Shown: piece after piece, positions 31,371 through 51,924 of the stretch | How the letters are laid out: each line of letters begins with the position of its first letter | Numbering within the stretch: position 1 is the first letter of the stretch | Assembly (NCBI RefSeq): GCF_900106095.1 | Contig: NZ_FNUD01000002.1 | Span: 4,051,501 to 4,115,500, forward strand | Reading direction: 5' to 3' | DNA length: 64,000 nt | Source of the DNA: Pseudomonas deceptionensis | GTDB taxonomy: Bacteria; Pseudomonadota; Gammaproteobacteria; Pseudomonadales; Pseudomonadaceae | Notes under the pieces: generated by a model | Told to the model about the DNA's origin: nothing | The model's input: the letters and a program-made list of their open reading frames with translations, nothing else | Databases searched by the model: none | Position numbers and translations under genes: made by a program

Positions 31371-32015
31371 CTAACACCCCACCTGCTGAGGAACTTTAAT
31401 CTTTGTGCCTTTAACCAATAACGGCACACCGGGATACACGTTGAATGACTCACTGGCTTTACCATCAACAGTCACGTCTTTCACCGCAAAACGCGTCGTA
31501 CCCGAAGCGTAAAAACGCGCGCCATCCGCTTCACATTTAACCGTTAACGTTGACGTTTCTTTCTGCGGCATATGCCGAATCAGTGAGCTAAAGGCAAGGT
31601 TGACCACCACATTGCCCGCCACGCTGGTTTGCTTGGGGTCGATGAGGTTGACCACCGGTTTTACTTCCAGGCGGTAAACCTGTTCCTCTTCGATAGAAAC
31701 CAGAGGCTTGATGGTGATTTTCTTGCTCTGTCCTGGGGCCAGCATCATCTTGAAAGGTGTGGCATAGAGCTTGGGTTGCGTCACCTGGACGATAGATTCC
31801 AGCCGTTCATCCTCAAACTCGACCCCTGGATTGAACAGGCGCGACAGCGAGATGGAGACAAACTCGGGGCGCTCGCCGTCGTTGGAAATGTCGAGCGTTA
31901 CAGGCTTATCCGATACCTCAGTGACCGCCGGCGTGACGTTGATCACGGCCGACGCTGGCGATGCTAGAACAAGCCCGCACAGAACAAAAAAAAGGCCGTT
32001 AGTAAATGGTTTCAT
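31371..32015 (-). CDS. Fimbrial chaperone, alternative (CS1/cable-pilus) class
   Basis: 214 residues with a signal peptide (about 1-23, ASA cleavage). VINVTPAVTEVSDKPVTLDISNDGERPEFVSISLSRLFNPG and MLAPGQSKKITIKPLVSIEEEQVYRLEVKPVV match the CblB/CooB type of periplasmic chaperone. Both immunoglobulin-like domains are present. It is the last gene of the leftward operon, 66 bp after the second pilin. As a second full-length chaperone it may serve that pilin specifically. Confidence 0.82.
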   Translation of the reverse strand: MKPFTNGLFFVLCGLVLASPASAVINVTPAVTEVSDKPVTLDISNDGERPEFVSISLSRLFNPGVEFEDERLESIVQVTQPKLYATPFKMMLAPGQSKKITIKPLVSIEEEQVYRLEVKPVVNLIDPKQTSVAGNVVVNLAFSSLIRHMPQKETSTLTVKCEADGARFYASGTTRFAVKDVTVDGKASESFNVYPGVPLLVKGTKIKVPQQVGC

Positions 32016-32081
32016 AGGTTTCTCGTAATAACTGAAGCATACCCTTGTGGCCTGGGCATGCCTGTTAACAGCAGGCGAACC

Positions 32082-32630
32082 TTAAAGGTTAGAAATTACC
32101 GGCTCGAAGGTCAGGGATAACACACCCGTGTAGGTGCCGACGGTTTCCCTGAACGTACCAGCCGGTGGATAAGCCGAGATGGAGAGGCCGTAATAGCCGA
32201 TGGAATCCACACCCGCCACGCCCTGCACGGGATTTTTAAAGACTGTCGGTGTTGCGACTGCCAGGGTTTTTGGCGCCTGGCCTTCTGCGTTCAGCTCCAC
32301 GATGGGTTGCAGGAAGACTTTCGAGGCATTACTGGCGTTGCGTATCACCAAGGGCTGATCCAGGCGCACCTGAAAATCCCTGTTGGTGGAGACAACTTTC
32401 AATCGGGCTTGCACCGCATAGGCGGAGTCCAATCCACCCGACTGTGACATTTTCAACCCCTGGTCAAACCATCCGCCCGTATCGCTGGTCACGAAAAAGT
32501 TGTTTTGTTTACTGACCGTGGCGGTAATTGTGCTGGTGACTTTACCTTGCAGATCGATATCCACCGCAAAGGCCACGGCCGGCAGAGTGCCCAGGACGGC
32601 CAGCAGGCTAGCCAATGCTACGTTGTTCAT
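32082..32630 (-). CDS. CS1-type fimbrial subunit (second pilin)
   Basis: 182 residues with signal peptide (about 1-22). VDIDLQGKVTSTITATVSKQNNFFVT is the donor-strand and first beta region, and TYTGVLSLTFEPVISNL the closing strand, as in CFA/I-CS1 pilins. There are no cysteines, as usual for this class. It resembles the first pilin at 37228 in pattern but is clearly diverged. GGAG precedes the ATG and only 3 bp separate it from the short chaperone gene. Confidence 0.82.
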   Translation of the reverse strand: MNNVALASLLAVLGTLPAVAFAVDIDLQGKVTSTITATVSKQNNFFVTSDTGGWFDQGLKMSQSGGLDSAYAVQARLKVVSTNRDFQVRLDQPLVIRNASNASKVFLQPIVELNAEGQAPKTLAVATPTVFKNPVQGVAGVDSIGYYGLSISAYPPAGTFRETVGTYTGVLSLTFEPVISNL

Positions 32631-32633
32631 GTG

Positions 32634-33134
32634 TTACTCCGATTGAGGATTAATCCTTGAAGTTGCCAAGTTCTGGTAAATCACCATGCCGTATCCGACG
32701 CTGACCGACAGGGGCGCCAACACGCCGTCTGGACCTTGCACTTGTACGGTCACGTGCTCTCTGGGCCTGAAGGTCACGCGCCACACCTGATTGCTGTCAG
32801 GTGTACCCAGGGTTTTGATGTTCATCCGGTACTTTTGCCCCGGCGCCAGCACCAATCGGGTAGGCGTCACCAGCAAACCGGGTTTGGGCACCTGACTGAT
32901 CGCCAGCAACTGCTCCGGTTTCTCACCGGGGTTGAGAACCAGGGCTTGCTCTACATCCAGATACAGGGGGGAGTCCCCGGTGTTCTGGGCGTAGAGCGCG
33001 CCTTGAAGTTGCTCGGGCACAAAGCGTAATTCAGGGGGCGAAAGTTTCAATACTCCCGCCGCCATGCCATTTAACGGGCTGATACATAACCAGCCCAACA
33101 GCAAGGCCACGGGAAATTTTATATACCTGCCCAC
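32634..33134 (-). CDS. Short, single-domain fimbrial chaperone-like protein
   Basis: 166 residues with a signal peptide (cleavage near AAG). Its body, LSPPELRFVPEQLQGALYAQNTGDSPLYLDVEQALVLNPG and VLAPGQKYRMNIKTLGTPDSNQVWRVTFRP, matches the N-terminal immunoglobulin domain of the neighbouring chaperones. The sequence stops where their C-terminal domain would begin. The GTG start at 33134 directly follows the adhesin stop. It may be a natural half-chaperone dedicated to one subunit or a shortened paralogue. The frame is intact. Confidence 0.75.
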   Translation of the reverse strand: MGRYIKFPVALLLGWLCISPLNGMAAGVLKLSPPELRFVPEQLQGALYAQNTGDSPLYLDVEQALVLNPGEKPEQLLAISQVPKPGLLVTPTRLVLAPGQKYRMNIKTLGTPDSNQVWRVTFRPREHVTVQVQGPDGVLAPLSVSVGYGMVIYQNLATSRINPQSE

Positions 33135-34211
33135 TTAAGGTTTCGCGACAACAGTGAAGGTCAATATATCGCTGTAAGCACCCGCTTTTACCGTTTTGTC
33201 AGGTTGAGCATTGAAGGTAGGTGTGAAGCACGTTCGCCCCCCTGCATCCAACGAAAACAAACGATTTAGAGTATTGGGCAAAAATACGGCATCGGTGCTA
33301 CTTTTGAGAGTTAATGTATAAGGAACCGTTTGCGAACTGTCTTCCAGGCTCTTTAGCAGATAACGACCGTTCGCCGACAAGCCATTGCTATTCGTCGCAT
33401 TAATTAAATATCTCTGACTGGTGAGCGCCGTTACCCCCTCATAGTTGAAACACAACTGGTCTTTGGTCGCTGGTAACGCCAAGACAGTTTCTTCACCCGC
33501 TGGCAACTCACCCAGATTCCAGTCCGGTGCGGTCATGGTGACTTTGGGAAATACGGCAGGAGGAGGGTCCGTTGGGTTGCTATAATGTGGACAATTGCCT
33601 CCCTTCGTACTGGGCCCTATATAAATCCAACCTTTCTCATCTGCGACAGAGAGGCCGCCGCGAGTAGTCAGCACGTTAGCTGCGCGCACACCAATCGCAG
33701 GCCACGTGCTAATCCTGGCAATTGGTATTTTCATTACAAGCCTCGCGGAAAATGCATTCGCTTTTGACCAATTCACCCCCCCCTGCCCACCTTGAGAAAA
33801 ATATAAAACATAATTATCGTCTCCATAAAGTTGGTCATTGGACTTACCATCTAATGCAGAATCTGCTATATCCTCACTATTAATTGGAGTACCGTTAGCA
33901 TTATAAGCCATAAGCAAATAACCGCGAGATTGAAACGTACTGTAATCGATGCGAGCCTGTGTCGCCGCATTAAAATTTAAAGTAATTCCATAAACGTAAT
34001 TAAAGCCAGTAATCTGAAAAGTACAGTCACTATAACTCGCAACAACATCACTGTACGAAACAATATGCGCTAATGCCTCTCCCGAAAAAATCAGCCCTAC
34101 AAAAGCAAGGAAAGAACCTAAAGGATTTATCGAACGCTTGCGCAATAATTTAATATGGGGAGAGTTACCAGACACAACCATTCTATTCAACAGAATTCTA
34201 TTTATTGACAT
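33135..34211 (-). CDS. Tip adhesin / minor pilin (CooD/CblD-like)
   Basis: 358 residues with a long leader (basic region, then PLGSFLAFVGLIFSGEALA; cleavage near residue 48). The two-domain pattern, with an N-terminal variable domain and a C-terminal pilin-like domain ending CFTPTFNAQPDKTVKAGAYSDILTFTVVAKP, fits the CooD/CblD tip adhesins of the CS1 class. The start overlaps the chaperone stop by 10 bp, and AGGTG precedes it. The gene is much richer in A and T than its neighbours, especially at 33780-34140. Receptor unknown. Confidence 0.8.
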   Translation of the reverse strand: MSINRILLNRMVVSGNSPHIKLLRKRSINPLGSFLAFVGLIFSGEALAHIVSYSDVVASYSDCTFQITGFNYVYGITLNFNAATQARIDYSTFQSRGYLLMAYNANGTPINSEDIADSALDGKSNDQLYGDDNYVLYFSQGGQGGVNWSKANAFSARLVMKIPIARISTWPAIGVRAANVLTTRGGLSVADEKGWIYIGPSTKGGNCPHYSNPTDPPPAVFPKVTMTAPDWNLGELPAGEETVLALPATKDQLCFNYEGVTALTSQRYLINATNSNGLSANGRYLLKSLEDSSQTVPYTLTLKSSTDAVFLPNTLNRLFSLDAGGRTCFTPTFNAQPDKTVKAGAYSDILTFTVVAKP

Positions 34212-34876
34212 TGTAGCACCTGCGATTTTTCATCAACCATAAACTTGAGACTCTTTGTGGCGAAGTGTTGTGGCGTCCCCGGAAACAAGGCAATTTTGGC
34301 TTTGGGTAGTTTGATACCTGCACTCTCAAGTCCCGATACCTGCACACTTATATTGCCCGTATTTTCCAGCGTCACACCGCCGTCTTTGCAGTGATAGGTC
34401 CAGCTCGCCTGTTGTTTGGCTGGGGGCGGCATATGCCGAACCAATACCCCGTAGCCAATGGCAACGGACATGGGCGCGGTGATTTTGTCTTTAGGCGCCT
34501 GCTCTACCTGCATGGCCCGTACCGGCACGATATACAGGCGGTACAAGGTCTCGGCCTCGGGCTCGACCAGCGACTTGAGGCTGATAGCGCGGCTCTGCCC
34601 CGCCCCCAATGTGAGTTTGTCAGGGCTGGCTAGCATGCCCGGATGCGTCAGGGCACTCAGCGGCTGTTTTATTTCCGGCGACACTCCGGGGTTCATCACC
34701 TTTTGCAAGCTGATGGACAAATACAGCGGCTCGTCACCGAGGTTTTTAACGTTCACCGAGTGCTCGTGATTGTTGTAAACCTTGAGGGTGGCCGGCATGA
34801 CCATCAACTCGCCTTCGGCCTGGGCCAGGCTTGAGCCAAGGCACATCAGGCTCAGCACTATCGTACGTAACTTCAT
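34202..34876 (-). CDS. Fimbrial chaperone, alternative (CblB/CooB) class
   Basis: 224 residues with signal peptide (about 1-20). ELMVMPATLKVYNNHEHSVNVKNLGDEPLYLSISLQKVMNPG, TLGAGQSRAISLKSLVEPEAETLYRLYIVPV and GYGVLVRHMPP match the alternative-class chaperones. Two immunoglobulin-like domains are present. It lies 25 bp after the usher and overlaps the adhesin start, so it is probably the main chaperone of this operon. Confidence 0.85.
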   Translation of the reverse strand: MKLRTIVLSLMCLGSSLAQAEGELMVMPATLKVYNNHEHSVNVKNLGDEPLYLSISLQKVMNPGVSPEIKQPLSALTHPGMLASPDKLTLGAGQSRAISLKSLVEPEAETLYRLYIVPVRAMQVEQAPKDKITAPMSVAIGYGVLVRHMPPPAKQQASWTYHCKDGGVTLENTGNISVQVSGLESAGIKLPKAKIALFPGTPQHFATKSLKFMVDEKSQVLQCQ

Positions 34877-34901
34877 AAAAGTTTCCTGTCAGGTTGTGCG
34901 C

Positions 34902-37154
34902 TTACTTGCACAAGTAATGGCTAGGCTGCACCGGCTTGGACAGATCACAGGTGTAACGCCCCCCCGCCCCTTCGACCGAAATATTCGCCAGCACTGCTTT
35001 GCTGCTGATCGAGAACAGGCCATTGGCATAGGCCGTGTCCCCGGTCTCGTGAATGGTGCCGCCCACCGGCTTGCCAGCCGCGTCCACCAATATGCCGCTG
35101 TAAACCATGTTGATATCCACCTTGGCCTTGGCGTTGTAAACCTGGCCTGGATGAGCGCGGATAATGTTCGCCGGTACTTCGATGTTCATGTCCATGTTTT
35201 CGCTGTCACTGCTGACACGAGCAAAGGGCACATCGCTGTACTGGTTAACTGGCACGGCATAGGTACCGTCGCCCGCAACCGGCTGACCTTCCACTTTGAA
35301 GCCGTAAGGCGTTTCACCCAGCGCAGGTGTTTGCAGAAGCATGGCGCTGCCGTTGCTGTAACGCCCCAGGGCAATGCCATCTGCGTTCGCAGCAAACATG
35401 CCGCGGTAGTTGAAGTCGACGTTACTGGCCGAATCACTGTGCCCCAGGTTAAGGGACGCATCGCCACGGGTACCTGCACGGCTGCCATAAGCGTTGAAGC
35501 TGTTGGTGCTGTCTACGCGGCTGACCGTGACACCGGTCGAAGTGGTGCCAAAGTTGTCGTCATAGTCCTTGCGATAGTCGCCACTCAACTGGGTTTTACC
35601 GCCGTACTGGGCCGCACGCACGCTGGCTTGCGACTTATCGAGCATCCAGGTCATGTTCAAGTAAACGGTGTAGTCGCTGTCACCGGGCATGGCGTTGGCT
35701 TTTTGCACGCCCAGGGCGAAGGTCGACCATAAACCGTTGGGTTTGTAGTTCCAGCGTGCTTCAAGTTGCTGGGTCTCCCCACGACCATAGTCCCGGTAGT
35801 TGTAGCCCAGCGTGACGCCGGCAATGTTTCTGCTGTAAGAAAGGCTGGAGCTGGGGGTGCCGTAATAAAAACGCGAGACGTCGGTGTTCTGATACCTGCT
35901 GAGCATCAAGTTGCCCAGTACCGGGTCGTTCATGCTCAGGTTGAAGTAACCGCCCGTGCCATTCTCGCCGCTCAACACACCCACTGTTGGGTCAACACTC
36001 AGCGTGCCAAAAGAGGAAGGTCGGGTGACGTTGACTTCAGAGGCCCAATCAGAGTCTTCACCGGAAACAGCCGCGGCGTTTAAATAGAACTGGCTCATAT
36101 TGCGGCTGATGGCGGCTTCTAGCAGTTGCCCGCCCTCGTCCATATCCTGCCCCGCCGTGACGCGCCAAGAGTTTGCACCGCCGAAGTTCAGGTTGTTGAT
36201 GTCCTGGGTCTGCTCGCTGATCAAATTACCGTTGCGATCGACCAGGCGAATCTCGACAGGGTAGTAGCCCCCGGGCAAGTCCATAAAGCTGACTTCGTTA
36301 CGCCCCAGAATGGCCGGGCGTTTAAGAATCAGGCGACCATTGCGGTAAAACTCGTAGTTACCTTCGGCCGTAGAAAACAGCACCAGCGAGCCCACGTCCC
36401 GGTCGCTGCGCATATAATCCTGGCTGCCCAGGGTAATAAACTGGTCGAAACTGGGCGACAGCACCGTACTGACTGAACCCGAGCCATAGTCGATACTGTT
36501 TTGCTTACCGGCACGCACATAGGTGTCGGCAAAGTTCTTCTGCAGGTAATAGGACGAAACGCCCTGGTCACGGCTGCTTTGACCACGGTTTTGGCTTCGG
36601 TTAGCGTACCAGTTCATATAGCCAAAACTGCGACCCGGCAAGCCAAGCCAGGTGGTGCCGTTCAAGTTGAAAGCACTGTAGCTTTCAGATGAACCCCGCA
36701 TATCCAGAGACTGATTATTGATCAGCCCCCACGTAGTATCAGGCGCAAGAAAATCTTCGCGCGTGGAGAGAATCTTTAGCGTGCGACGTGCCTTGTCCAG
36801 GGTGACGTAATGATCAGCCACCTTCAGATCACAACCCTCCTTGCATTGCTTATAGTCAATTTTTGACAGCACCTCTTCGATAACGCGCCGATCTTCAGCG
36901 TCAATACCATTATCCGCATACTGACGCGCATCAAATACAAGGGCATTTCCAGACACTGAATAACTGATAAAACCAGGCAATGTCTTACCATTGTAAGTAG
37001 CGACATACTTCGCCGTATTATCCATCTCAACCGTACTGAAACCTTCAGGCACCCCATAAGATATCTTTACTTCAGCCAAGGTATGTGAAGAAAAAGCCGT
37101 AACAATACAAGCCGCCAATATATGCAACTGAAAGGGAATCTTATGGGTGAACAT
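34902..37154 (-). CDS. Outer-membrane usher, alternative (CblC/CooC-like) class
   Basis: 750 residues with signal peptide (about 1-27). EVKISYGVPEGFSTVEMDNTAKYVATYNGKTLPGF, the middle barrel segment RPAILGRNEVSFMDLPGGYYPVEIRLVDRNGN and the C-terminal GILVDAAGKPVGGTIHETGDTAYANGLFSISSKAVLANISVEG are typical of CS1-class ushers rather than FimD/PapC. It forms the secretion and assembly pore for the pilus. It lies 73 bp after the major pilin, with a terminator-like stem between. Confidence 0.88.
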   Translation of the reverse strand: MFTHKIPFQLHILAACIVTAFSSHTLAEVKISYGVPEGFSTVEMDNTAKYVATYNGKTLPGFISYSVSGNALVFDARQYADNGIDAEDRRVIEEVLSKIDYKQCKEGCDLKVADHYVTLDKARRTLKILSTREDFLAPDTTWGLINNQSLDMRGSSESYSAFNLNGTTWLGLPGRSFGYMNWYANRSQNRGQSSRDQGVSSYYLQKNFADTYVRAGKQNSIDYGSGSVSTVLSPSFDQFITLGSQDYMRSDRDVGSLVLFSTAEGNYEFYRNGRLILKRPAILGRNEVSFMDLPGGYYPVEIRLVDRNGNLISEQTQDINNLNFGGANSWRVTAGQDMDEGGQLLEAAISRNMSQFYLNAAAVSGEDSDWASEVNVTRPSSFGTLSVDPTVGVLSGENGTGGYFNLSMNDPVLGNLMLSRYQNTDVSRFYYGTPSSSLSYSRNIAGVTLGYNYRDYGRGETQQLEARWNYKPNGLWSTFALGVQKANAMPGDSDYTVYLNMTWMLDKSQASVRAAQYGGKTQLSGDYRKDYDDNFGTTSTGVTVSRVDSTNSFNAYGSRAGTRGDASLNLGHSDSASNVDFNYRGMFAANADGIALGRYSNGSAMLLQTPALGETPYGFKVEGQPVAGDGTYAVPVNQYSDVPFARVSSDSENMDMNIEVPANIIRAHPGQVYNAKAKVDINMVYSGILVDAAGKPVGGTIHETGDTAYANGLFSISSKAVLANISVEGAGGRYTCDLSKPVQPSHYLCK

Positions 37155-37227: not shown

Positions 37228-37734
37228 TTACGGAGCTGGAGTTGGCTCGAACAGCATGACCAGGTCACCGCTGTAGCTACCATTGGTGCTTACGGTGCCT
37301 ACCTTGGTAGGTGCGTTTACACTGACAGCCAGTTGGTGAATCTGGTCATAGCCGCCAACACCGGCAACGGTTTGATCAACGGTCAGCGCACTACCGTAAG
37401 TCAGAGGTTTTGCGTTCAAGCTCACAGCAGCGTTGGTCATCTCATAAGCGCCGTTGGACATTTTCAGTGGCTGGGCCAACGTGACGTTAAAGTCGTCAGC
37501 AGAGCTCCAAACACGCACAGGCAGTGTTTTCGAGAACGAAGTTTGAGTGTGGTTGTTTGCAGCCAACTCTTCGGTGCCGTACCAGGTTGAACCGTCTGCC
37601 TTGGAAACGAACAGCGTGTCGTTAATCTGTGCAGTCAGGGTGATCTTCTTGGACACAGTGTTATCTGCAGCCTGCGCCATACCAACCAATGCGCCGCTCA
37701 GGCCAAGAGCAATCAAAGCAACTTTAAAGTTCAT
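37228..37734 (-). CDS. CS1-type major fimbrial subunit
   Basis: 168 residues from the ATG at 37734 (MNFKVALIALGLSGALVGMAQA signal, then ADNTVSKKITLTAQINDTLFVS). The last strand is TNGSYSGDLVMLFEPTPAP. Cysteine-free, as in CFA/I-CS1 pilins. First gene of the leftward operon pilin-usher-chaperone-adhesin-short chaperone-pilin-chaperone. An upstream frame extension to 37776 lacks a signal peptide and is rejected. Confidence 0.85.
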   Translation of the reverse strand: MNFKVALIALGLSGALVGMAQAADNTVSKKITLTAQINDTLFVSKADGSTWYGTEELAANNHTQTSFSKTLPVRVWSSADDFNVTLAQPLKMSNGAYEMTNAAVSLNAKPLTYGSALTVDQTVAGVGGYDQIHQLAVSVNAPTKVGTVSTNGSYSGDLVMLFEPTPAP

Positions 37735-37866
37735 CTTATATATCCAAGGTAGGGAAAATGTCGCCAAACAGATCATGCATCAAGCATTAGATATGGTTGG
37801 CAGTTGTTCATTAAAGGCAGTTCCTACTGCCTGACAAAATAATGACATGACCGCCCCCATTCAACC

Positions 37867-37881
37867 ATAAGACGAATCTTA
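37867..37881. promoter_or_regulatory. Inverted repeat ATAAGA-N4-TCTTA upstream of the first pilin
   Basis: Located 133 bp upstream of the pilin start and 144 bp upstream of the kinase start. Shares arms with 46206-46227. A candidate site for the LuxR-type response regulator encoded nearby (inference). The rest of 37735-38024 is AT-rich with no other clear element. Confidence 0.4.
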
Positions 37882-37983
37882 ATGAGCCCCCACCTTCAAC
37901 AAAATGACAGGACCTTCATAATATTAAACGCCCCCCTGCTCACGACAGGCCAATATGCAAATTATTACCTGACTTTAAGGATT

Positions 37984-37992
37984 GTCTTATAT
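37984..37992. promoter_or_regulatory. GTCTTATAT motif upstream of the first hybrid kinase
   Basis: Exact 9-bp match to 46221-46229 in front of the second fimbrial operon, 32 bp before the kinase start. Confidence 0.3.
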
Positions 37993-38024: not shown

Positions 38025-40847
38025 ATGAAACTGAAAATGTACTTGCACGCCATAAACCCTCTTCTTTCATCGCCTCATTCGGCAAGACGCTTATTATGGG
38101 CAGTGGCTACCATACTGTTGGCAGGGCTGCTGGCCGGGGTCTATAACTTTTTGCTCTTTACGTTCAATACCGAGTTATCCCAACGTCGCGGGTATATGAG
38201 CAGTGCCATTGCCGAAGCCCATACCTTTTTCACCACCCGCCAGGCGCTGCTGGAAAGCATCAGCCTTTCGGCGACGCGTCAGCCGCAAGGTGAGTTTGTA
38301 TCGGTCTCCGCTGAAGAAATTCATTTACTCCTGGGGCCCTCACCGCAACAGCAATGGAGCCTCTGGCTGACTGAGCGCTTGCGTGATTATATGAAAGAGA
38401 AACAGGTCAACCTGGTTTACGTCAGCACAGGTGCCAACGCCAAAGTATCCCGCCTTTATAACGCCACCGATGCCGTGAGCGGTTTTTCCGAAACCATCCT
38501 GCGCCAGCTTGAATCCCTGAAACACGATGACAGTGCACTGCTCGATGAGCTGTGGTTATCCGAGCAGAACAGCCCCCATGCCCGGCTGTATATTTTTATC
38601 CGCCTGGATGAGCGCGACCCTCAATCCGGCTGGCTGGGGCTGGAAATGGATTCCGGCGAAGTCTCGACGGCCCTGAGTGATCAGAGCGCCGGGCAATTTA
38701 TGATGCTCAACTCGCAGGGCTCTTTGCTGTTCACCAACAGCCTTGTGCATGCATTGGGTGACAGGCTGTTGCCGCTGCAAGACCAGAACTTCTTCGGCCT
38801 GGTCGGTAGCCGGTGGTGGCCGGATCATGTGGTTATCCGCAAACAACTCAAGTCGTCTGACTGGCAGTTGGTGTACTTCATCGACTTGCGTTCAGTCATG
38901 CTGTCGTTATGGCCGCAGTTGCTGGGGGCACTGCTGTTTTGCCTGATCAGCCTGACGTTGGTGTGGCTGTTGATGCGGCGCCTGGAGCAGCGCTTTATCG
39001 CCCCCACGATTCATCGCATCCAGGCGCTGGTCGAAAGCGAGCTGTTCAGCCGCGACGTGATTCAGACCGCACCTGTGGCGCTGTGTGTGCTGCGTCGCAG
39101 CGATGGCCAGGTGGTGCTGGAAAACACCCTGGCCCAACAATGGATGGGCCAGGGCGGTGAACGCGAAGCGTTGAGCGCCACCTGGATACAGCGCGCCTTC
39201 GGCAGTGCCGAGCCAGAGCTTACCGACTACTTTGAAACGGCCGACGGCCGCCACTTGTATTTAAGCTGTGCACCGACCCGCTATAGAAGCGAGGACGTGC
39301 TGCTGTGCGCCTTCAGCGACATCAGTACTCGCACCCAGATTGAAACAACGCTGCAACAGGCACGGCAAATAGCAGAAGCTGCCAACGAAGCCAAAACCCT
39401 GTTCCTGGCCACCATGAGCCATGAGATTCGCACACCGTTACATGGGGTGCTGGGCACGCTGGAACTGCTGGGGCGCACTCAACTGGACCCCCAGCAAAAG
39501 GATTATCTGCATGCTATCGAAAGCTCCTCCGCCACGTTGTTACAGCTGATTTGTGACGTACTGGATGTATCAAAGATCGAAGCAGGGCAACTGGCGCTGG
39601 AACTGAGCGAGTTCTCTGTGCTGGAACTGGCTCAGGAGGTTGTTCAAGCCTATGCCGCCGCTGCACAGCGCAAGGGGTTGAAACTCTACGCCTGCTATGA
39701 CCCCAAGTTGCCGGACCGGGTTATAGGTGATGTGGCGCGCATTCGCCAGGTGCTCAACAACCTGTTGAGTAACGCCGTGAAATTCACCGACTCCGGCCGA
39801 GTGGTTCTGCGCTTGAGCCTGCAGAGTCGTGAAGGTGAACGGGCCAGTCTGTTGTGGCAAGTTTCAGACACGGGCAGAGGCATTCCACAGGCCGCGCAGC
39901 CTTTTATTTTCGAGCCGTTCTACCAGAGCGAAGGCAGCACCCATGGGGTGGCTGGCACCGGCCTTGGCCTGCCGATCTGCCTGCGTTTAATCCAGTTAAT
40001 GAATGGCAGCATCCGCATGGTCAGTGAAGTGGGCCTGGGCAGCAGTTTTTCCCTCAGCCTGCCTTTGGAGGTGCCAGCCACCAGCGGCTTGTCAGCGGCC
40101 CTGCCCGAGCTGCTGCCGGAAACCATCCATGTGGTTTCACCTGTGCGTGAACTGGCCGAGACCGTCAGCGGTTGGCTGCGCAAGTGGGGCGCGCGCCCAC
40201 AAATCGGCCACCCTGCGCACCACCAGGGTGATACAGCCGCTGTTTTGCTTGAGTTACACCCAGGCTCCCTTGAGCAACGGCTGGAACCTGACTGGGATGG
40301 CCCGGTAGTGCTGGCCACTGGAGACGGCAACCACGAACCACAGATCATTGACGGCACATGGAAGGTCAACCTCAATCATTTAAAAGCCATCCATCAAGCC
40401 GTCGGCGAGGCACAGGGTGTGCAGGTGCTCAAACCCAACAAGCCCAATGAAATAAATGAATTGAAAAGGCTCAACCTGAAGATCCTGGTAGCCGAAGACA
40501 ACGTGATTAATCAATTGATTATGAGCGCACAGCTGGAAAAACTCGGCTGCTGCGTCGAGCTGGCCTCCAATGGCGAAGAAGCACTGTCCATTTGGCACAA
40601 AGGAAAGTTCGATTTGCTGATCACCGACGTCAATATGCCCAAAGTCAACGGTTATGAACTGACCCGCCTGCTCCGCAGCCAAGGTTGCCTGTCACCGATC
40701 ATCGGCGCCACCGCCAACGCCATGCTTGGCGAAGAAGAACTCTGTCTTGGGGCCGGAATGAACCACTGTCTGGTCAAACCTTTCAACTTGCAGGCCTTGT
40801 TTAACTGCCTTGCGCCTTACGAAGGAGCAGCCCATGAAACCCTTTAG
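38025..40847 (+). CDS. Roc-like hybrid sensor histidine kinase (no Hpt)
   Basis: 940 residues from the ATG at 38025; a GTG at 38001 and an ATG at 38037 are alternatives. Helix near residues 20-42, a periplasmic sensor of about 240 residues, a second helix near 300, and a PAS-like stretch. The HisKA domain has [18 protein letters not shown] (phospho-His about 466). The HATPase domain has [22 protein letters not shown] and GTGLGLPIC. The C-terminal REC domain (about 815-930) has ILVAEDN and LITDVNMP (phospho-Asp about 867). Resembles P. aeruginosa RocS and Burkholderia cable-pilus kinases, which act beside fimbrial operons. It ends without an Hpt domain. Overlaps the next gene by 14 bp. Confidence 0.87.
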
Positions 40848-45000: not shown

Positions 45001-45311
45001 CCACAAGCGGCATCGATCAAGTCCAGCTCTCGCCCCGAATGCGCGAGCTGTTCTTCAGCACGATGTACGAAGATGTGCACATGATTCAAGTTGCGCTGGA
45101 CAGTAACGATGCCATGGCACTGGCACATCAGTTGCACAGCATGGGCGGAGCCTTGGGCTCAGTACAGTCTTACGCCCTGGCCGATACCTGCAGTGAACTT
45201 GAACTCCAGCTAAGAGAACGTGGCGTTACACCTCAACTGGCACAGGATGTCAGCGACTGGCTGGAACGAATTGCTGCATTGCTAAAAAAACTGGAGGCTC
45301 CTGACTTATGA
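42084..45311 (+). CDS. Roc-like hybrid sensor histidine kinase with REC and Hpt domains
   Basis: 1075 residues. Two membrane helices (about 18-38 and 325-352) bracket a sensor region of about 285 residues. His[20 protein letters not shown] (phospho-His about 496). HATPase: NNLLSNAIKFTDSG, SDSGIGIS and GAGLGLSIC. REC: VLVAEDNPINREI and LVLTDVNMPVLNG (phospho-Asp about 891). C-terminal Hpt: LAHQLHSMGGALGSV (phospho-His about 1015). This is the full four-step phosphorelay arrangement of RocS/BvgS-type kinases. The LuxR-type regulator 41 bp downstream is its likely partner. Paralogous to the kinase at 38025, which lacks Hpt. Confidence 0.9.
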   Translation: MTARNTLLDKLTKSSLRLNKGLTVLLALALLLIGVSYWGVQRMLDEQRENVGFHFARLMESIREHESFLNTVSRESTKGRLLEKLHAPINLHDPAPAQGDNVYVGREYSFSLPFSVRINPTTIPALQNSKITELGAHLANYYSAYWSASHYQSPQIYVFNVPDNFELSVPAHGRLRGVAHTQVGESAFVIQQILASRTANTAQGEANSVHWLPYIGRPGSGSAPNMLSYVDIDLPSTQLHISGASPRVVVASLLNLAQVNNVERITQRSIYDHFILIAPTGETVIGAPKPELALHDGLNLNSEGLVFQISSAEPKPWTGIYIISFTTFLDYALWALLGLLALLLAGLGCGWAFSRWYKKRVIVPARQAHDDIAEREAFSQTVIESAPTGLCVVRCSDHKVLLENQLAQQSRSSAKLVAALEKHHELSAHGKTELEIDGRHLQVGVVFTRYHGEDAWLCAFHDVTNHIEDATILEHARQAADSANKAKSRFLATMSHEIRTPLYGVLGTLELLELTALQPRQQEYLHTIQRSSSTLFQLISDVLDVSKIEAGQMTIDSQDFCPLDITEETMSTYSAFALNKGLQLYACIDAQIPARVRGDPVRIRQILNNLLSNAIKFTDSGQVVLWVRTLEQNEEYSTLEWQVSDSGIGISPAQQVQLFEPFYQVRTTFSEGGAGLGLSICRRLCELMGGSLEVISEPGLGSSFSLQLRLKREPGELADCPEFGPQTVPVYVRAPAPELAQHICAWLSRMGVHARLLNDMQSVDRSALLVDILASDTHHDWPGPRIIARPDGRNPPEFSANGWEADANSIRGIAWAVSFAQQGIATPVSDSLPRQNQQLQLRVLVAEDNPINREIIKEQLEALGCFVVVAINGEQALEFWMPGVFDLVLTDVNMPVLNGYELARALRAQDSELPIIGITANAMREEGKRCAAAGMNAWMVKPLSMHTLHAQLLKHCKGVLIDPGMTTDQPPAPTSGIDQVQLSPRMRELFFSTMYEDVHMIQVALDSNDAMALAHQLHSMGGALGSVQSYALADTCSELELQLRERGVTPQLAQDVSDWLERIAALLKKLEAPDL

Positions 45312-45352: not shown

Positions 45353-46000
45353 ATGCGCAAACTTAATGTTGTAATCGCCGACGATCACCCCATTGTGCTG
45401 TTGGGCTTGCTTGAATTGATTGAGCGCGACGGACGCTTCCATGTTGTCGGCCAGGCGGTAGGCTCTGAAGGGCTGGTGCAGCTGCTGGAGAAGCAGGCTG
45501 TAGACCTTATCGTCACGGATTTCAGCATGCCGGCAAAATCACCTTATGGTGACGGCCTGAAACTGGTGGAGTATTTGAAGCGTCACTACCCCAGTGTGCG
45601 CATTCTGGTGTTGACCATGATATCCAGCCCCTTGATTCTCACTCGCCTGCACGAACTGGGAGTGGCCGGGATCATTCAAAAAAGGCATTTGCACAACGAA
45701 ATCGAAGTCGCGCTCAACGCTGTTATCCAGGGCATGGAATACCAGAATGCTGACGCAACGGCTAAATCGTTGACTGATAACCTGCTGACCTTGAATGAGC
45801 GCTTCGCCACTCTGTCACCCAAAGAGCACGAAATACTTCGTCTTTTTGTCTCAGGGCAAAGTGTCAGTGACATCGCAAGAGGGCAAAACAGAAGCTCTAA
45901 GACCATCAGTGCTCAGAAAATTTCTGCCATGCGTAAACTGGAAGTGACCAGCGACCAGGATTTGATCACCTATTGCCTGGAGACCAATATCTTTAAATAG
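45353..46000 (+). CDS. LuxR/FixJ-type response regulator (RocA-like)
   Basis: 215 residues. REC domain (about 1-120): VVIADDHPIVLLGLLELIERD, LIVTDFSMPAKSPYGDG (phospho-Asp about 57), with K in GIIQKRH. LuxR HTH (about 145-205): TLSPKEHEILRLFVSGQSVSDIARGQNRSSKTISAQKISAMRKL. Resembles RocA/EvgA/BvgA regulators that drive fimbrial promoters. A deleted second copy of its 3' part lies at 52137-52255. Confidence 0.9.
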   Translation: MRKLNVVIADDHPIVLLGLLELIERDGRFHVVGQAVGSEGLVQLLEKQAVDLIVTDFSMPAKSPYGDGLKLVEYLKRHYPSVRILVLTMISSPLILTRLHELGVAGIIQKRHLHNEIEVALNAVIQGMEYQNADATAKSLTDNLLTLNERFATLSPKEHEILRLFVSGQSVSDIARGQNRSSKTISAQKISAMRKLEVTSDQDLITYCLETNIFK

Positions 46001-46205: not shown

Positions 46206-46227
46206 ATAAGAATAAGGAACGTCTTAT
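46206..46227. promoter_or_regulatory. Inverted repeat ATAAGA-N10-TCTTAT upstream of the second fimbrial operon
   Basis: Perfect 6-bp arms, 326 bp upstream of the first DUF1120 pilin. Shared with 37867-37881. The remainder of 46228-46552 is AT-rich and probably holds the pilin promoter, but no convincing -35/-10 pair can be chosen. Confidence 0.4.
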
Positions 46228-46552: not shown

Positions 46553-47251
46553 ATGTTCACTGTTCAAAAATCCCTATGCGCCTTGGCCGTTCTGGCGACT
46601 ACATCAATGCCAGTCCTGGCAGAAAGCATTGACGTGCGCGTTGTAGGGACTATTTCTCCCGCAGCCTGTACACCAATGTTGACCGGCGGTGGCACTGTAG
46701 ATTACGGCGCAATCAAGCCTGACGCCCTGAGTGAAGATGCATTCACCGTACTGGCTGAAAAGCAGTTGGACTTCGGTATCGTTTGTGATGCACCGGCTAA
46801 AATCGCGCTGAAAGCAATCAATGGCCGTCCAGGCTCTTTGGCGGGCGCAGTTGAAGGCCCAGGCGGCTTTGGTGTCCCCAAAGTTAATCTGTTAACAGAC
46901 GCGAATGCGGTAGCAGGCGGTCTGGGACTCGACGGCCAGCACAAAATTGGCGGTTATGCCGTTGCCATGAAACCAGGCACCGTGCAGGCGGATGGCGTAG
47001 ATGTTAACAGTATTCGTAGCAGCAACAACGGCACAACCTGGGAAGCCAGCCCAGCGGGTATTCTGGGCGGCAACGCCTGGGCTAACTTGTGGAACACCTG
47101 GAGCAAGACAGGCACTACCGTGCCGGTCGCTTTCGAAACGTTGTCAGGCAAGTTGTCGGTACAAGCCTATATCAACAAAACTTCAGAGTTGGACCTGACC
47201 AAGCCTGTAGCACTGGATGGCCTGACAACTATCGAGTTGGTTTATCTGTAA
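46553..47251 (+). CDS. DUF1120-type fimbrial subunit (first pilin of second operon)
   Basis: 232 residues with signal peptide (about 1-23, VLA cleavage). The mature chain begins ESIDVRVVGTISPAACTPMLTGGGTVDYGAIKPDALS. Two cysteines (in AACTP and IVCDAPAK) probably form the pilin disulfide. It ends in the strand LDGLTTIELVYL. Closely similar to the pilin at 51217. First gene of a pilin-chaperone-usher-minor pilin-pilin operon. AGGAAAG precedes the ATG. Confidence 0.85.
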   Translation: MFTVQKSLCALAVLATTSMPVLAESIDVRVVGTISPAACTPMLTGGGTVDYGAIKPDALSEDAFTVLAEKQLDFGIVCDAPAKIALKAINGRPGSLAGAVEGPGGFGVPKVNLLTDANAVAGGLGLDGQHKIGGYAVAMKPGTVQADGVDVNSIRSSNNGTTWEASPAGILGGNAWANLWNTWSKTGTTVPVAFETLSGKLSVQAYINKTSELDLTKPVALDGLTTIELVYL

Positions 47252-47284
47252 CGCTCTCTGAAACAGATCGCTAGATTTAATAGT

Positions 47285-47312: not shown

Positions 47313-47372
47313 CTTGTTGGTCATAATTAGCAACGACACTGTATCTCCTACACCGCACTGGTATAAAACAGT

Positions 47373-48071
47373 ATGAAATTATCATCTTTATTTAACACAG
47401 GCGCGATCGCGCTCTTGCTGTTCTCTACCCATTCCGAGGCCACCGGCATGGTGCCGGAAACCTCCGTGGTAATCGTCGAGCAAGAGGACGGTGAAGGGGC
47501 TATCAATGTCAAAAATACCGATGCATTCCCGGTATTGTTATTAACCACTCTTGAAAATATCGAAGACGACGGTGAAAACCTGCTGACTATTACGCCACCG
47601 ACTGCGCGCGTCGAACCCGGCAATTCTCAACGTGTTCGCTTTATCATAACTAACAAAGAACCGCTGAAAACCGAACGTCTCAAACGTGTCACCTTTGAGG
47701 GCGTGCCGCCGCAGCAAAAAGGTAAAAATGAAGTGCGCGTCACCATGCGCCAAAACCTCCCGGTGATTATCCGCCCTGCTGGATTGGAAAAAGACTTGTC
47801 ACCCTGGAAACGCCTAGCCTGGAAGCAGATCGGCGGCAGCATCACCGTCAGCAATCCGTCACCTTACGTGGTACGTCTTGGGCAGGGTATACAAACGCTG
47901 CCAGACAACACCAACTGGACTCTGCCGAATACCTACGTATTACCGGGCCAAACGCTGACCATCAAGCCGGATGACAATACAAATCCGGGGGAGGCCCAAC
48001 AGGTACGCATTTCTCCAGCGACTACCTGGGGTTACACCGTCAACACCTATGACGCGCCACTGAGCCACTGA
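47373..48071 (+). CDS. PapD-like periplasmic fimbrial chaperone
   Basis: 232 residues with signal peptide (about 1-23). The classical chaperone pattern is present: GAINVKNTDAFPVLLLTTLE, RVEPGNSQRVRFIITNKEPLKTERLKRVTFEGVPP, MRQNLPVIIRPAGL and a C-terminal immunoglobulin domain. This is the conventional PapD/FimC class, unlike the CS1-type chaperones at 31-35 kb. Binds subunits in the periplasm and delivers them to the usher, whose gene starts 1 bp later. Confidence 0.9.
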   Translation: MKLSSLFNTGAIALLLFSTHSEATGMVPETSVVIVEQEDGEGAINVKNTDAFPVLLLTTLENIEDDGENLLTITPPTARVEPGNSQRVRFIITNKEPLKTERLKRVTFEGVPPQQKGKNEVRVTMRQNLPVIIRPAGLEKDLSPWKRLAWKQIGGSITVSNPSPYVVRLGQGIQTLPDNTNWTLPNTYVLPGQTLTIKPDDNTNPGEAQQVRISPATTWGYTVNTYDAPLSH

Positions 48072-48072
48072 C

Positions 48073-50508
48073 GTGAGGATGACGGTGCCAAATCAATCCC
48101 ACTCGGCCGTCAACACTAGACCAGCACGCTCAGTGCTTTCTTTGGCGCTATTGACCGCCTTGAGCACACAACCATTATCAGCTCTGGCAGCCGCTGGCGA
48201 TGTCGAGTTCGATATCCAGGCCATGCAGGCGCGCGGTGTCGATACAAAAGTTGCGGAATGGTTTCGCCAGGCACCGCGTTTTATGCCGGGTGAGTCGACA
48301 GTGGCATTAACGGTGAACGGTAGTGCCCGAGGCAGGGCCAAAGTTCGCTTTGATCATGATGGTCAACTGTGCGCGGACAAAGACTTTCAACGGCAGGCTG
48401 GGTTGTTGTCACCGCCCGGCTTTAGGGAAGATGCGGCCTGCTTTGACCTGAAAAGTGCCTGGCCGCAAGCCGAACTGAACCTCAATCCGGGCCAAGAACG
48501 GATCGATCTGGTGGTACCACAGCAGGCGGTCGCCTTATACGGTACCGAAAGCGGTAACTGGAACCATGGCGGCTTTGCCAGCATGCTCAACTACGATGCG
48601 CAATATATGGATTCGGACGGCAGCACAGGTCTGAATTTTACACAACTGGGTAGTGAAGCCGGGTTCAACCTTAGCGACTGGATTGTGCGTAGTCGCCAGA
48701 CCTATACGCGGTTTGACGGTGATACGTCGATGCAGCATCAAGCAGCCTATGCGCAGCGCAGCTTTACCGCCCTTAAAAAGGTGCTACAGGCCGGGCAAAT
48801 CAGCTTGTCTAACTCGATGTTCGGCACTGGCCAGGTTCTAGGTATGCAACTACTCCCTGAGGCGGCGCTGACGGGTAACCGCGGCGGTGCCGGATTGGTT
48901 GAAGGCATTGCCGACAGTCAGTCGGTGGTGGAAGTTCGCCAGTCTGGGGTGTTGGTTTACAGCACCACAGTCCCTGCCGGGCCATTCCGTTTGCAAGGGT
49001 TATCCTTGCTCAACACCCGCTCCGATCTGGATGTCACGCTCACCGGTAGTGATGGGGAGCGTCGTCAGTTTCGCGTTCCGGCTTCAGCATTCTTGCTCAA
49101 TGGCTCCGCCGTTGCTCCGGGCTTGTCTTTCGGCGTCGGTAAGCTGGATCAGCAAGGGAGTAGCGAATCCCCGGTATTAGGCACAATCGCCAACGGCTGG
49201 GCACTAAATCCATACACGACGCTCAATGCCGGTTTGCTGGGTTCAACACCTTATCGCGCCGCAGCGGTCGGTGCGGATAGCCAGCTGTTTGATTCCACGT
49301 TGCTATCACTGCAGACCACGGCGGCCCAGGACGACAAACACGGCAACAACGGGGTTTCGGTCGTCACCACCTTGAACCATCAGGCCACCGAGCGTATTGG
49401 GTTGAACGTTAATGCCAGACAGCAAACTTCTGGCTACCGCGAGCTGAGCGATGCATTGCAAGAAGAGCAGATCGACGAGACTAGCCGCATTCGCAGTCAG
49501 TACGGCGGCGGCGCCAGTTGGTCTGACGAAAGCCTGGGTAGCTTCTCGTTGTCCGCTGCGCGCAGTATGACTTTTGAAGGCGACGCAACCAACTATCTGC
49601 GTGGCGGCTGGAGCAAACAGTTTGGCCGTGCCTACGTCGGTGCCAGCCTGGAACATGACACCGGCACCCGCGATAGCGAGGCCGATAATCGCTTTTACCT
49701 GACGGTCAATATTCCCTTCGGCAATGGCAGCAGTGTCAGCAGCTACCTTAACAGCGCAAGCAAAGGCAGCCGTGGGGGTGTGCGTTACAGCGATCGCACC
49801 AGCCAGGATCGCGGCTGGAGTCTGTCGAGTGACCGGGACATCCAGAATCGCCGTACCGCCAACACGGGAACGGTGGATATGACCACGCCGTTCAGCCAGC
49901 TTAACGCCAGCCTGAGCCATGACTCAGACAGCAACTCCAGCTGGTCGGCGCGGGCCTCTGGTGGCATCGTGGCTCATGATGGCGGCGTGACCCTCTCACC
50001 CTATCGCGTCGGCGATACCTTTGGGGTGGCTAAAGTCGGTGACGAAGTGGGCGTTCGCGTGGAGACCCCGGCAGGCCCCACCTGGACCGATGGGAAAGGT
50101 TATGCCGTCTTGCCTTCATTAAATGGTTACAGGCGTTCGGCGATCCAGGTTGATACCCGCAGTCTGGCCAAAAACGTCGATATCGGTAATGCCTGGCAAG
50201 AGACTGAGGCGGCACGCGGTTCAGTGAGCTACGTCAATTTTGACGTGGTACGCACGCGGCGAGTGTTGGTTGACGTGAGAGATGCGCAGGATAAACCGTT
50301 ACCGCACGGTGCCAGCGTATTCGATGCGGCTGGCAACTTTGTCACCGTAGTTGGTAATCAGGGTAGCGTATTTATTCCAGACGCCAGCACCAGCGACACG
50401 CTGGAAGTACAAACCTCTGGCGCCACGATTTGCTCATTCTCACTCTCTCTGCCGGTAAAAACAGACATGAGCGGCCTTTATGAAACAGCCAGCGCAGTCT
50501 GCCGCTGA
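48073..50508 (+). CDS. Outer-membrane fimbrial usher (PapC/FimD class)
   Basis: 811 residues. Signal peptide to about residue 40. N-terminal domain: GDVEFDIQAMQARGVDTKVAEWF. The barrel region includes GQVLGMQLLPEAALTGNRGG and VVEVRQSGVLVYSTTVPAGPFRLQGLSL, the usher signature. C-terminal domains: GVRVETPAGPTWTDGKGYAVLPSLNGYRRSAIQVDTRSLAKNVDI and a final segment with the cysteines of TICSFSLSLPVKTD...CR. The GTG at 48073 is used; an ATG 6 nt later is equally possible. Confidence 0.92.
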   Translation: MRMTVPNQSHSAVNTRPARSVLSLALLTALSTQPLSALAAAGDVEFDIQAMQARGVDTKVAEWFRQAPRFMPGESTVALTVNGSARGRAKVRFDHDGQLCADKDFQRQAGLLSPPGFREDAACFDLKSAWPQAELNLNPGQERIDLVVPQQAVALYGTESGNWNHGGFASMLNYDAQYMDSDGSTGLNFTQLGSEAGFNLSDWIVRSRQTYTRFDGDTSMQHQAAYAQRSFTALKKVLQAGQISLSNSMFGTGQVLGMQLLPEAALTGNRGGAGLVEGIADSQSVVEVRQSGVLVYSTTVPAGPFRLQGLSLLNTRSDLDVTLTGSDGERRQFRVPASAFLLNGSAVAPGLSFGVGKLDQQGSSESPVLGTIANGWALNPYTTLNAGLLGSTPYRAAAVGADSQLFDSTLLSLQTTAAQDDKHGNNGVSVVTTLNHQATERIGLNVNARQQTSGYRELSDALQEEQIDETSRIRSQYGGGASWSDESLGSFSLSAARSMTFEGDATNYLRGGWSKQFGRAYVGASLEHDTGTRDSEADNRFYLTVNIPFGNGSSVSSYLNSASKGSRGGVRYSDRTSQDRGWSLSSDRDIQNRRTANTGTVDMTTPFSQLNASLSHDSDSNSSWSARASGGIVAHDGGVTLSPYRVGDTFGVAKVGDEVGVRVETPAGPTWTDGKGYAVLPSLNGYRRSAIQVDTRSLAKNVDIGNAWQETEAARGSVSYVNFDVVRTRRVLVDVRDAQDKPLPHGASVFDAAGNFVTVVGNQGSVFIPDASTSDTLEVQTSGATICSFSLSLPVKTDMSGLYETASAVCR

Positions 50509-50520
50509 CAGGAGAACACC

Positions 50521-51117
50521 TTGAAATCCTTCTTCACCGCGCTGGCAATGATGCTGGCATTTAGTCCAATGGCGCAGGCAATAGCTGTTGGGAATGACAT
50601 GGGGCCAAATATCGGAACGATATTACCGTCCGACATGCGCTGCCACCTGTCGGCAAGCGCAGCAGTAATTGACTATGGCAGCCACTCACGCTGGCAGCTA
50701 CAGGATGTCGGCGGTGGTCAACAGGTCAGCCCTGGCAAACGTATGCTGATGGTGAGCGTGGTGTGCCCCTACAGCCAAACGATGCGCGTGATGTTGCGTG
50801 GCGACAGGGCCAGCAACGGCAATCTGCGTTATGGCGACCGGGGCAACGTGACAATGCGGCTGTTGGATGCGCAATTGGATGGCCAGAACATTCCTGTAGC
50901 GACCACCACGGCGGATGGCAGGGTGAGCGGTGCTGCTGAAACCAGCATGTCGCTGCAGCCAGGCAACGGCATTGTCGCCATGCATAACGGCCAACCGGCC
51001 AAAGGAAAAACCTTCACCGCCCGCATTCAGCTTGAGCCGGTTATGCCAGAAAGCGACGCTCGGATTTCAGCCCGTCAGATCACTGAGTCCAGCCTGGATC
51101 TGGATTTGATGGATTAA
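50521..51117 (+). CDS. Minor fimbrial subunit or tip protein
   Basis: 198 residues with signal peptide (about 1-20, AQA cleavage). Two cysteines (MRCHLSA and VVCPYSQ) suggest the pilin disulfide. The body is beta-rich and ends with ARIQLEPVMPESDARISARQITESSLDLDLMD. Position 12 bp after the usher suggests an adaptor or tip subunit. No specific adhesin family is recognised. Confidence 0.7.
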   Translation: MKSFFTALAMMLAFSPMAQAIAVGNDMGPNIGTILPSDMRCHLSASAAVIDYGSHSRWQLQDVGGGQQVSPGKRMLMVSVVCPYSQTMRVMLRGDRASNGNLRYGDRGNVTMRLLDAQLDGQNIPVATTTADGRVSGAAETSMSLQPGNGIVAMHNGQPAKGKTFTARIQLEPVMPESDARISARQITESSLDLDLMD

Positions 51118-51216
51118 ATTTCCCGGCCAGGGCATACCGTTTTGTGGTGAGCGCCAGCCAAACAAAGATAACAACGCTCTGGCGGAAATAGCGCCTGAGG
51201 CCGTGAAAAAGGAAAG

Positions 51217-51924
51217 ATGCCAATGTTGGGCGATGTTCAAAAAACCTTGTGTCTGCTGGCCGTGCTGGCTACCTGCTCTATGCCTATCCAGGCAGAAAGC
51301 ATTAATGTGCGCATTATCAGTACTCAAGTTCCAGTGGCTTGCACTCCGATGCTGTCAGGTGGAGGCTCCGTAGATTATGGTGCGATAAAGCCAAATACCC
51401 TGAGCACTGATGCATACACAATACTGACCGAGAAACAGTTGGATTTCGCCATCACCTGTAATGCACCGGCAAAAATTGCCCTGAAAGCGGTCAATGGCCG
51501 CCCAGGGTCTCTGGCTGGAGCACCCGAAGGTCCCGGCGGCTTTGGTACCCCTGGGGTCCGGCTGCTCAATGACGACGCTGCGGTGGCTGGAGGCTTGGGG
51601 TTTGACGGTACGCACAAGATCGGCGGTTATGCTGTGGCCATCAAACCAGGCACTGTGCAGGCTGATGGTGTGGATGTCGACAGTATTCGCAGCAGCACCA
51701 ACGGCGCAGGTTGGGGACCCAGCCCATCGGGGATTCTGGGGAAGAACCTTTGGGATAACCTGATGAACTCATGGAGTAAAAAGGGAACCACGCTGCCGAT
51801 CGCTTTCGAAACCTTGTCGGGTAAGTTGGCAGTGCAGGCCTACATCAACAAAACTTCCGAGTTGGACCTGAGTAAACCGGTGGCATTGGACGGTCTGACA
51901 ACCATAGAACTGGTGTACCTGTAA
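51217..51924 (+). CDS. DUF1120-type fimbrial subunit (second pilin, paralogue of 46553)
   Basis: 235 residues. Signal peptide, then ESINVRIISTQVPVACTPMLSGGGSVDYGAIKPNTLSTDAYTILTEKQLDFAITCNAPAK. It closely matches the pilin at 46553 over its whole length, including the identical end LDGLTTIELVYL. Last gene of the operon, 99 bp after the minor subunit. The twin genes probably arose by duplication and offer alternative or co-polymerised subunits. Confidence 0.85.
   Translation: MPMLGDVQKTLCLLAVLATCSMPIQAESINVRIISTQVPVACTPMLSGGGSVDYGAIKPNTLSTDAYTILTEKQLDFAITCNAPAKIALKAVNGRPGSLAGAPEGPGGFGTPGVRLLNDDAAVAGGLGFDGTHKIGGYAVAIKPGTVQADGVDVDSIRSSTNGAGWGPSPSGILGKNLWDNLMNSWSKKGTTLPIAFETLSGKLAVQAYINKTSELDLSKPVALDGLTTIELVYL

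Follow-up and report, generated by a model that had tools for sequence, protein, structure and literature searches.

Two fimbrial operons around one signalling block

Here, we analysed a 64,000-nucleotide stretch of the Pseudomonas deceptionensis genome (contig NZ_FNUD01000002.1; below, the window), in which a signalling block of four genes lies between two fimbrial operons. The host has a 5.1-Mb genome of the fragi/psychrophila group, and its CS1-type usher is 95% identical to that of P. psychrophila DSM 17535 and 93% identical to that of P. fragi F1801. A CS1/class-5 (alternate) fimbrial operon of seven genes (37776-31371, minus strand) is located to the left of the block. The block itself occupies 38025-46000 on the plus strand and encodes, in this order, a hybrid kinase, a REC-EAL protein, a hybrid kinase with an Hpt domain and an RcsB-type regulator; to the right, a DUF1120/PapD/FimD operon follows on the plus strand (46553-51924). 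All genes named in a first-pass annotation of this DNA are present at about the positions it had given, and the two ushers, CS1-type and FimD/PapC-type, differ in their Pfam architectures. We propose, with a probability of about 0.65, that the block is a PvrSR/RcsCB-type phosphorelay whose RcsB-like regulator would activate its own operon, the CS1 operon, the DUF1120 operon and probably a second DUF1120 operon of the same genome, through boxes of the form TAAGNNNNGTCTTA.

The PvrSR/RcsCB-type make-up of the block consists of a kinase without Hpt, a REC-EAL protein, a kinase with Hpt and an RcsB-type regulator in one operon-like run. The first kinase (38025..40847, plus strand) is PvrS-like and has HisKA, HATPase_c and REC domains. 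Its H and D boxes are invariant in 32 sequences, and a low-confidence model (predicted template modelling score 0.38) suggests a two-part mixed alpha/beta fold for its input domain. The start of this gene is most likely the ATG at 38025 and not the GTG at 38001, judging from many homologues of 940 amino acids and a conserved start arrangement. The second gene (40834..42021, plus strand, start placed at the ATG 40834) encodes a predicted PvrR-like phosphodiesterase (PF00072, PF00563) which matches the RocR structure 3sy8 with E 9.4e-60. This protein aligns with RocR over almost the full length and, as read by eye, retains the EAL motif and the loop-6 residues DDFG-GYSS, which supports the tie to cyclic di-guanosine monophosphate (c-di-GMP) suggested in the first-pass annotation; in a plasmid search it had no close relative (147 records, all below 60%). 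The RcsC-like kinase (42084..45311, plus strand; HisKA, HATPase_c, REC, Hpt) has its H and D boxes as well as its Hpt residues, again read by eye. Finally, the NarL/LuxR-type response regulator (45353..46000, plus strand; REC and GerE) matches solved RcsB structures with E 2.4e-42, and in the alignment with these structures its recognition helix is very similar to that of RcsB.

The CS1 operon, all on the minus strand, begins with the major fimbrial subunit (37228..37776; PF04449, and a match to CFA/I fimbrial subunit B with E 2.5e-5) and an alternate (CS1/class 5) usher of 750 amino acids (34902..37154; PF00577 and the TcfC-type E-set domain PF16967). Both PF04449 and PF16967 score above the cut-off, which assigns the operon to the CS1/class 5 fimbriae, and these are the only two of its seven genes that Pfam names. 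A fimbrial chaperone of 224 amino acids (34202..34876) comes next and adjoins the usher also in loci L009-L013, L107 and L108 of other genomes. The following gene encodes a putative tip protein or adhesin of 358 amino acids (33135..34211), a role assigned only from its position; it is 51% identical to its P. psychrophila counterpart, as compared to 85-96% for the other six genes of the operon, and this may reflect fast divergence or exchange. The remaining three genes encode a short chaperone paralogue of about one Ig domain (32634..33134; 166 amino acids), a second CS1-like subunit (32082..32630; 182 amino acids) which gives cross-matches of 27-29% with the major subunit and is present in L009-L013, and a third chaperone-like protein (31371..32015; 214 amino acids) with a 28-29% match to the locus of the first chaperone in L009 and L010 and with orthologues in L009-L013. 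A fold comparison was made for the short chaperone only: its model (mean predicted local distance difference test score 76) has entries 6k73 and 4ncd of the class-5 chaperone CfaA as top matches. Such a single-domain paralogue is also found in the CS1 operons of L009-L013, L107 and L108.

CS1-type ushers are rare in Pseudomonas, with a match (E up to 1e-60) in 4 of 398 genomes, scoring being limited to no more than the two best first-look candidates of each genome. Among the best 120 of 186 matches, many of them without names, the named relatives belong mostly to Burkholderia and Achromobacter and some to Pseudomonas, and those from Burkholderia are 56-63% identical. When plasmids were searched with the usher, three records matched, two of which are large Burkholderia replicons.

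The second operon belongs to the classical PapD/FimD class, as it encodes an usher with PapC_N, Usher and PapC_C domains together with a PapD chaperone. Its genes, all on the plus strand, are those of the DUF1120 fimbrial subunit D1 (46553..47251; PF06551), the PapD-type chaperone (47373..48071; PF00345, PF02753), the FimD/PapC-type usher (48073..50508; PF00577, PF13954, PF13953), a subunit-like protein without a Pfam match (50521..51117), relatives of which adjoin some other DUF1120 ushers, and the subunit D2 (51217..51924; PF06551), a duplicate of D1 with 73.5% DNA identity. A match to this usher (E up to 1e-200) was found in 3 of the 398 genomes.

A common box at three promoters

The 64 kb contain exactly three sites of the pattern TAAGNNNNGTCTTA, one ahead of each fimbrial operon and one ahead of the first kinase. 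The predicted RcsB-type box of the CS1 operon (TAAGATTCGTCTTA; 37868..37881, minus strand) is followed 23 nt on by CATTAT. That of the signalling operon (TAAGGATTGTCTTA; 37976..37989, plus strand) is followed at the same distance by TACAGT and, after a further 6 nt, by the ATG, and that of the DUF1120 operon (TAAGGAACGTCTTA; 46213..46226, plus strand) has TATGAT 23 nt on. With a matrix derived from the kinase promoters of 24 relatives (10 distinct 18-mers, none from the window), the signalling, CS1 and DUF1120 boxes rank first, second and third in the 64 kb at 26.7, 21.4 and 18.8 bits, and the next site reaches 16.8 bits. The gap is itself conserved: at 59 sites of the fetched block loci, -10-like hexamers peak at 23 nt, with 3.59 matches to TATAAT versus 2.78 at the next best gap and 1.43 as the overall mean. 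The block thus adjoins chaperone-usher operons with a predicted RcsB-type box. Lying 23 nt upstream of the -10, the boxes would be at about -42, an activator position overlapping the -35. In the mechanism that we propose, the PvrS-like kinase would pass phosphate through the Hpt of the RcsC-like protein to the regulator, and the RcsC-like protein would also drain phosphate. The self-activated operon would in addition supply the REC-EAL protein, which by lowering c-di-GMP would act against the fimbrial output.

At the first kinase, the arrangement of box, 23 nt, TANNNT, 6 nt and ATG is kept in all 29 loci compared (the window, L009, L010 and L016-L041). The ATG lies at 35 nt in 27 of them, and in the other two (L026, L040) both hexamer and ATG are one base further; the intervening bases vary, and two of the 29 boxes (L029, L030) have two mismatches. 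Since a start site at the usual distance from such a -10 falls on the ATG, the message of the first kinase is predicted to be leaderless, and apparently is so throughout this group. Among 616 open reading frames of at least 150 codons in L016-L041, TANNNT stands six bases upstream of the first ATG in 38, the kinases themselves included. In the window, the -10-like hexamer and the ATG fall within 38013-38027. A literature search found no paper on such a leaderless start. If the prediction is true, the message of the master sensor would be leaderless and its output would come from a self-activated, low-yield start.

The box was then followed through whole genomes. In the 5.1 Mb of the host, TAAGRWNNGTCTKA matches six times (once for a reversed-pattern control): three times in the window, twice by a second DUF1120 operon near 3.23 Mb and once at 4.66 Mb. 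In this second operon (within C2:3226001-3242000), the 14-mer of the CS1 promoter recurs without a change; one of its boxes lies 107 bp before a subunit gene and the other faces away from its subunit gene. Two exact boxes and two one-mismatch sites are found in all among its subunit genes.

In a sample of 149 Pseudomonas genomes, a match to the EAL protein (E up to 1e-60) was present in 45, and in 40 of these, taken as block genomes, at 51% identity or more; the stretches fetched around the matches covered 38 of the 40, all but G023 and G142. The stricter pattern TAAGRATCGTCTKA occurs 46 times in the sample (reversed-pattern control, 2), 39 times within 12 kb of a block, and it is found in 27 of the 40 block genomes versus 1 of the 109 others. 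The 26 closest blocks (L016-L041) carry TAAGNNNNGTCTKA exactly at the kinase start in 24 cases. Their partner, in 23 of 26, is another usher class encoded downstream of the regulator with the same orientation, and all of these 23 have, within 900 bp after the regulator, a site that deviates from TAAGNNNNGTCTKA by no more than one mismatch. Most blocks have a single fimbrial partner. Among 39 loci with a detectable first kinase (the window, L014 and 37 others), counting the ushers in the stretch examined, one usher was found in 35, two in the window and in L030, and none in two loci; a third two-usher locus is that of G030, whose second usher lies in a further stretch (L086). Two ushers beside one such block are thus uncommon.

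Several points weigh against this interpretation. As the motif was first noticed in the window, its shuffle statistics are post hoc: the two intergenic regions gave 0 and 5 of 20000, and the whole window 0 of 300. Independent evidence comes from the relatives, which in turn are not independent of one another. The strict TAAGRATCGTCTKA is missing from 13 of the 40 block genomes, including that of P. deceptionensis, and 7 of its 46 sites are away from blocks, one of them in a block-less genome; two of the seven (L079, L081) adjoin another regulator/kinase pair, and L080 and L082-L085 have no neighbour matching the query set. In L030, a block with two fimbriae, the kinase box is one of those with two mismatches. 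A loosened form of the box has no exact match in seven stretches (six distinct loci, L011 being the same as L113) that contain other CS1 operons, where L011, L012 and L013 have box-like sites with 2 or 3 mismatches. Similarly, exact TAAGNNNNGTCTKA was found in none of 20 other DUF1120 operons (from the upper part of 81 places, one per genome, some skipped) and a one-mismatch site somewhere in the stretch in five of the 20, so the box was rejected as a general trait of DUF1120 promoters; two of these five cases (L089, L096) are palindromic sites upstream of a subunit gene in block-bearing genomes. Finally, the DUF1120 box of the window lies 340 bp before the first gene, and the whole DUF1120 operon is absent from the two sister species considered below.

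History of the locus and alternative explanations

P. psychrophila (L009) and P. fragi F1801 (L010) both carry the CS1 operon plus the block, and their best matches to the DUF1120 usher are only 28% and 26% identical, respectively. In P. psychrophila, a RidA-like gene follows the regulator directly. The window matches the P. fragi F1801 locus from 31371 to 46008 and no further on the left, an end that suggests that the CS1 operon and the block form a transferable unit. In comparison with P. psychrophila, there are at most 3 differences per 60 bases over 44100-45959, and in the next 60 bases 8 of the 51 aligned ones differ. Beyond the DUF1120 operon, a remnant of this 3' end (52137..52270, plus strand) matches 45598-45665 and 45943-45999, and the distal part of the remnant has a further match in the P. 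psychrophila DNA that directly follows the regulator stop. Both the divergence of the regulator 3' end and the shortened copy would result from an insertion, and we conclude that the DUF1120 operon was probably inserted at this point; its loss in both sister species would be less economical. The stretch 52023-52139, which runs into the remnant, encodes 39 codons resembling, by eye, what we take to be the start of an IS3 OrfA, and Pfam gave no match on these 39 residues.

The CS1 operon and the block thus appear to be the older partnership, which the DUF1120 operon would have joined later, and the two-pilus state is young. The two-fimbria arrangement noted in the first-pass annotation is present here, yet it loses weight by being recent. 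Conserved linkage of both fimbriae was also considered and rejected, as only this genome of the 398 has both usher types. The whole fimbrial locus is bracketed by arrays of a 182-bp tandem repeat (30501-31323 and 52403-53271; about 92% identical, same direction), and related repeats stand at both ends of the P. psychrophila locus. Elsewhere in the window there is a 247-bp unit in tandem (5090-6537; 5.9 copies, 96% matches) and, at 18092-18156, a borderline Rfam match to the TwoAYGGAY RNA (43.5 bits, cut-off 43) within an open frame that has no Pfam match.

A narrower explanation is that the block controls only the CS1 operon and itself, while the DUF1120 operon is an inserted passenger under control of its own and its box arose by chance or is a relic of the fimbrial operon found downstream of the regulator in other pseudomonads. 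In favour of this are the absence of the DUF1120 operon from both sister species, its insertion scar, the 340 bp to its first gene and, in most of the closest blocks, a different fimbria whose box comes immediately after the regulator. The 340-bp leader itself did not fold unusually (z -1.2) and contained neither a terminator-like site nor a sigma-70-type promoter. However, a near-perfect -10 (TATGAT) follows the box at the conserved gap, and the box is not an obvious relic: in comparison with the fetched loci of other genomes, the DNA after the regulator gave only two short matches (30 and 49 bp), neither of which spans the box. Moreover, an exact box precedes a subunit gene of the host's second DUF1120 operon by 107 bp, as given above, and the related DUF1120 operon of G062, which adjoins a block, has a box with one mismatch 94 bp ahead of its subunit gene. 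The usher group has three close members in the 398 genomes, this one included, and the third, G036, in which there is no EAL match at E up to 1e-60, has only a two-mismatch site; three cases prove nothing alone. On balance, we regard the passenger explanation as unlikely.

Less probable still is that the DUF1120 boxes serve another regulator of the RcsB family and that no true co-control exists. The genome does hold a second block (L014, C2:42001-62000) with two RcsB-like regulators near C2 position 52,000 and a separate Hpt-kinase-like gene, and the RocA1-3 regulators of P. aeruginosa are reported to have very similar binding sequences in vitro. Nevertheless, the best site at the kinase of this second block is the variant CAGGAATTGTCTGA, and the second DUF1120 operon carries the 14-mer of the CS1 promoter without change. 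The idea of a switch, with one fimbria activated and the other repressed, has in its favour only that two fimbrial types flank one regulator, and we reject it as highly improbable, since an identical promoter layout, with the same box at the same distance to the -10, predicts the same sign at both. The first-pass annotation had left open whether one block chooses between the two fimbriae or co-controls them: the box and spacing shared by both operons and the kinase operon point to joint control, whereas choosing is unsupported because both promoters have the activator-type layout. Co-activation by the RcsB-like regulator therefore fits better than a choice between pili, and what was a guess from gene order becomes a predicted regulon with exact operator coordinates.

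A wider and more tentative idea, which we hold to be somewhat less probable than its opposite, is that the Pvr/Rcs block acts as a plug-in hub in Pseudomonas. It would keep its box-driven, apparently leaderless start while the neighbouring fimbria is exchanged, and new pilus operons, next door or elsewhere, would be wired in by gaining or bringing a box at the fixed distance from a -10. The usher classes found beside Pvr/Rcs-type blocks include those like L002 and like L003, the CS1 class and the DUF1120 class. This suggests a route by which pilus operons of different ancestry may join one phosphodiesterase-linked phosphorelay after horizontal transfer.

Comparison with known systems

The closest known system is the cupD-rcsBC-pvrRS cluster on PAPI-1 of P. 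aeruginosa PA14 (PMC2696094, PMC3842833), which we compared with the block by its published make-up, the gene order being taken from the cluster name. According to these accounts, PvrS is likely the kinase, RcsC acts as relay and phosphatase, and PvrR is a phosphodiesterase countering cupD. RcsB activates cupD via a putative site, three bases of which are needed for the function of the cupD promoter, and overproduction of RcsB induces pvrS, pvrR, rcsC and rcsB. Both systems thus combine a four-protein block with a neighbouring chaperone-usher operon, and both have a fimbrial promoter with a putative RcsB site, self-induction (predicted here) and direct repeats flanking the unit. The difference lies in the fimbriae: one is described there, while here a CS1-type and a DUF1120-type operon stand on opposite sides of the block.

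The first-pass annotation had called the phosphorelay Roc-like. The Roc1/2/3 systems also combine a kinase network, a RocR-like phosphodiesterase and DNA-binding regulators with more than one fimbrial operon (predicted here); one sensor network acts on cupB and cupC, and in vitro the roc1 locus is itself a target of RocA binding (PMC3083521, PMC12051241). However, RocS1 has SBP_bac_3 input domains, which were not found in either kinase (Pfam, E up to 0.001), the gene order differs, and P. aeruginosa RocR is only 31% identical to the EAL protein. We therefore rejected Roc membership, and the make-up is better described as PvrS/PvrR/RcsC/RcsB.

The cable pili of Burkholderia with CblS/CblT/CblR resemble the locus in that a regulator and two kinases accompany the pilus genes, with both kinases relaying through the Hpt of one of them (as discussed in PMC3842833). 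No EAL gene is mentioned in that discussion, whereas here the EAL gene is inside the block, and there are seven structural genes and a second fimbria. Alternate-usher loci were also searched with the window proteins (tblastn). Upstream of the CS1-type operons of Achromobacter, B. multivorans, B. arboris and G224 there are hybrid kinases, accompanied by an EAL gene in Achromobacter and in G224. The stretches of L011/L113, L013 and L110/L111 showed no such kinase, and no regulator was found beside the Achromobacter kinases. The operons of L107, L108, L012 and L112 (from Burkholderia, Achromobacter and a few Pseudomonas) share with the window the major subunit, usher and chaperone as well as the upstream kinase or kinases. 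They differ in that their signalling proteins are 29-45% identical to those described here, the EAL gene occurs only in L012 and L112, and the exact box was not found. In the B. arboris locus (L108), a kinase, a regulator, a second kinase, a classical usher operon and a CS1-type operon stand together and no EAL domain was found; as in the window, a classical usher operon is beside the CS1-type operon, and there it sits between the kinases and the CS1 operon. It seems that such kinases and pili came together on more than one occasion. In P. fragi D12, a fim operon that lies near an EAL gene has been described as induced by cold (PMC13188923).

The first-pass annotation knew of no description of this exact arrangement, and our search of the open-licence literature likewise found no account of a CS1 plus DUF1120 combination. 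One network acting on several pili is already known from Roc with cupB and cupC, and what appears to be new is a CS1 and a DUF1120 fimbria around one block.

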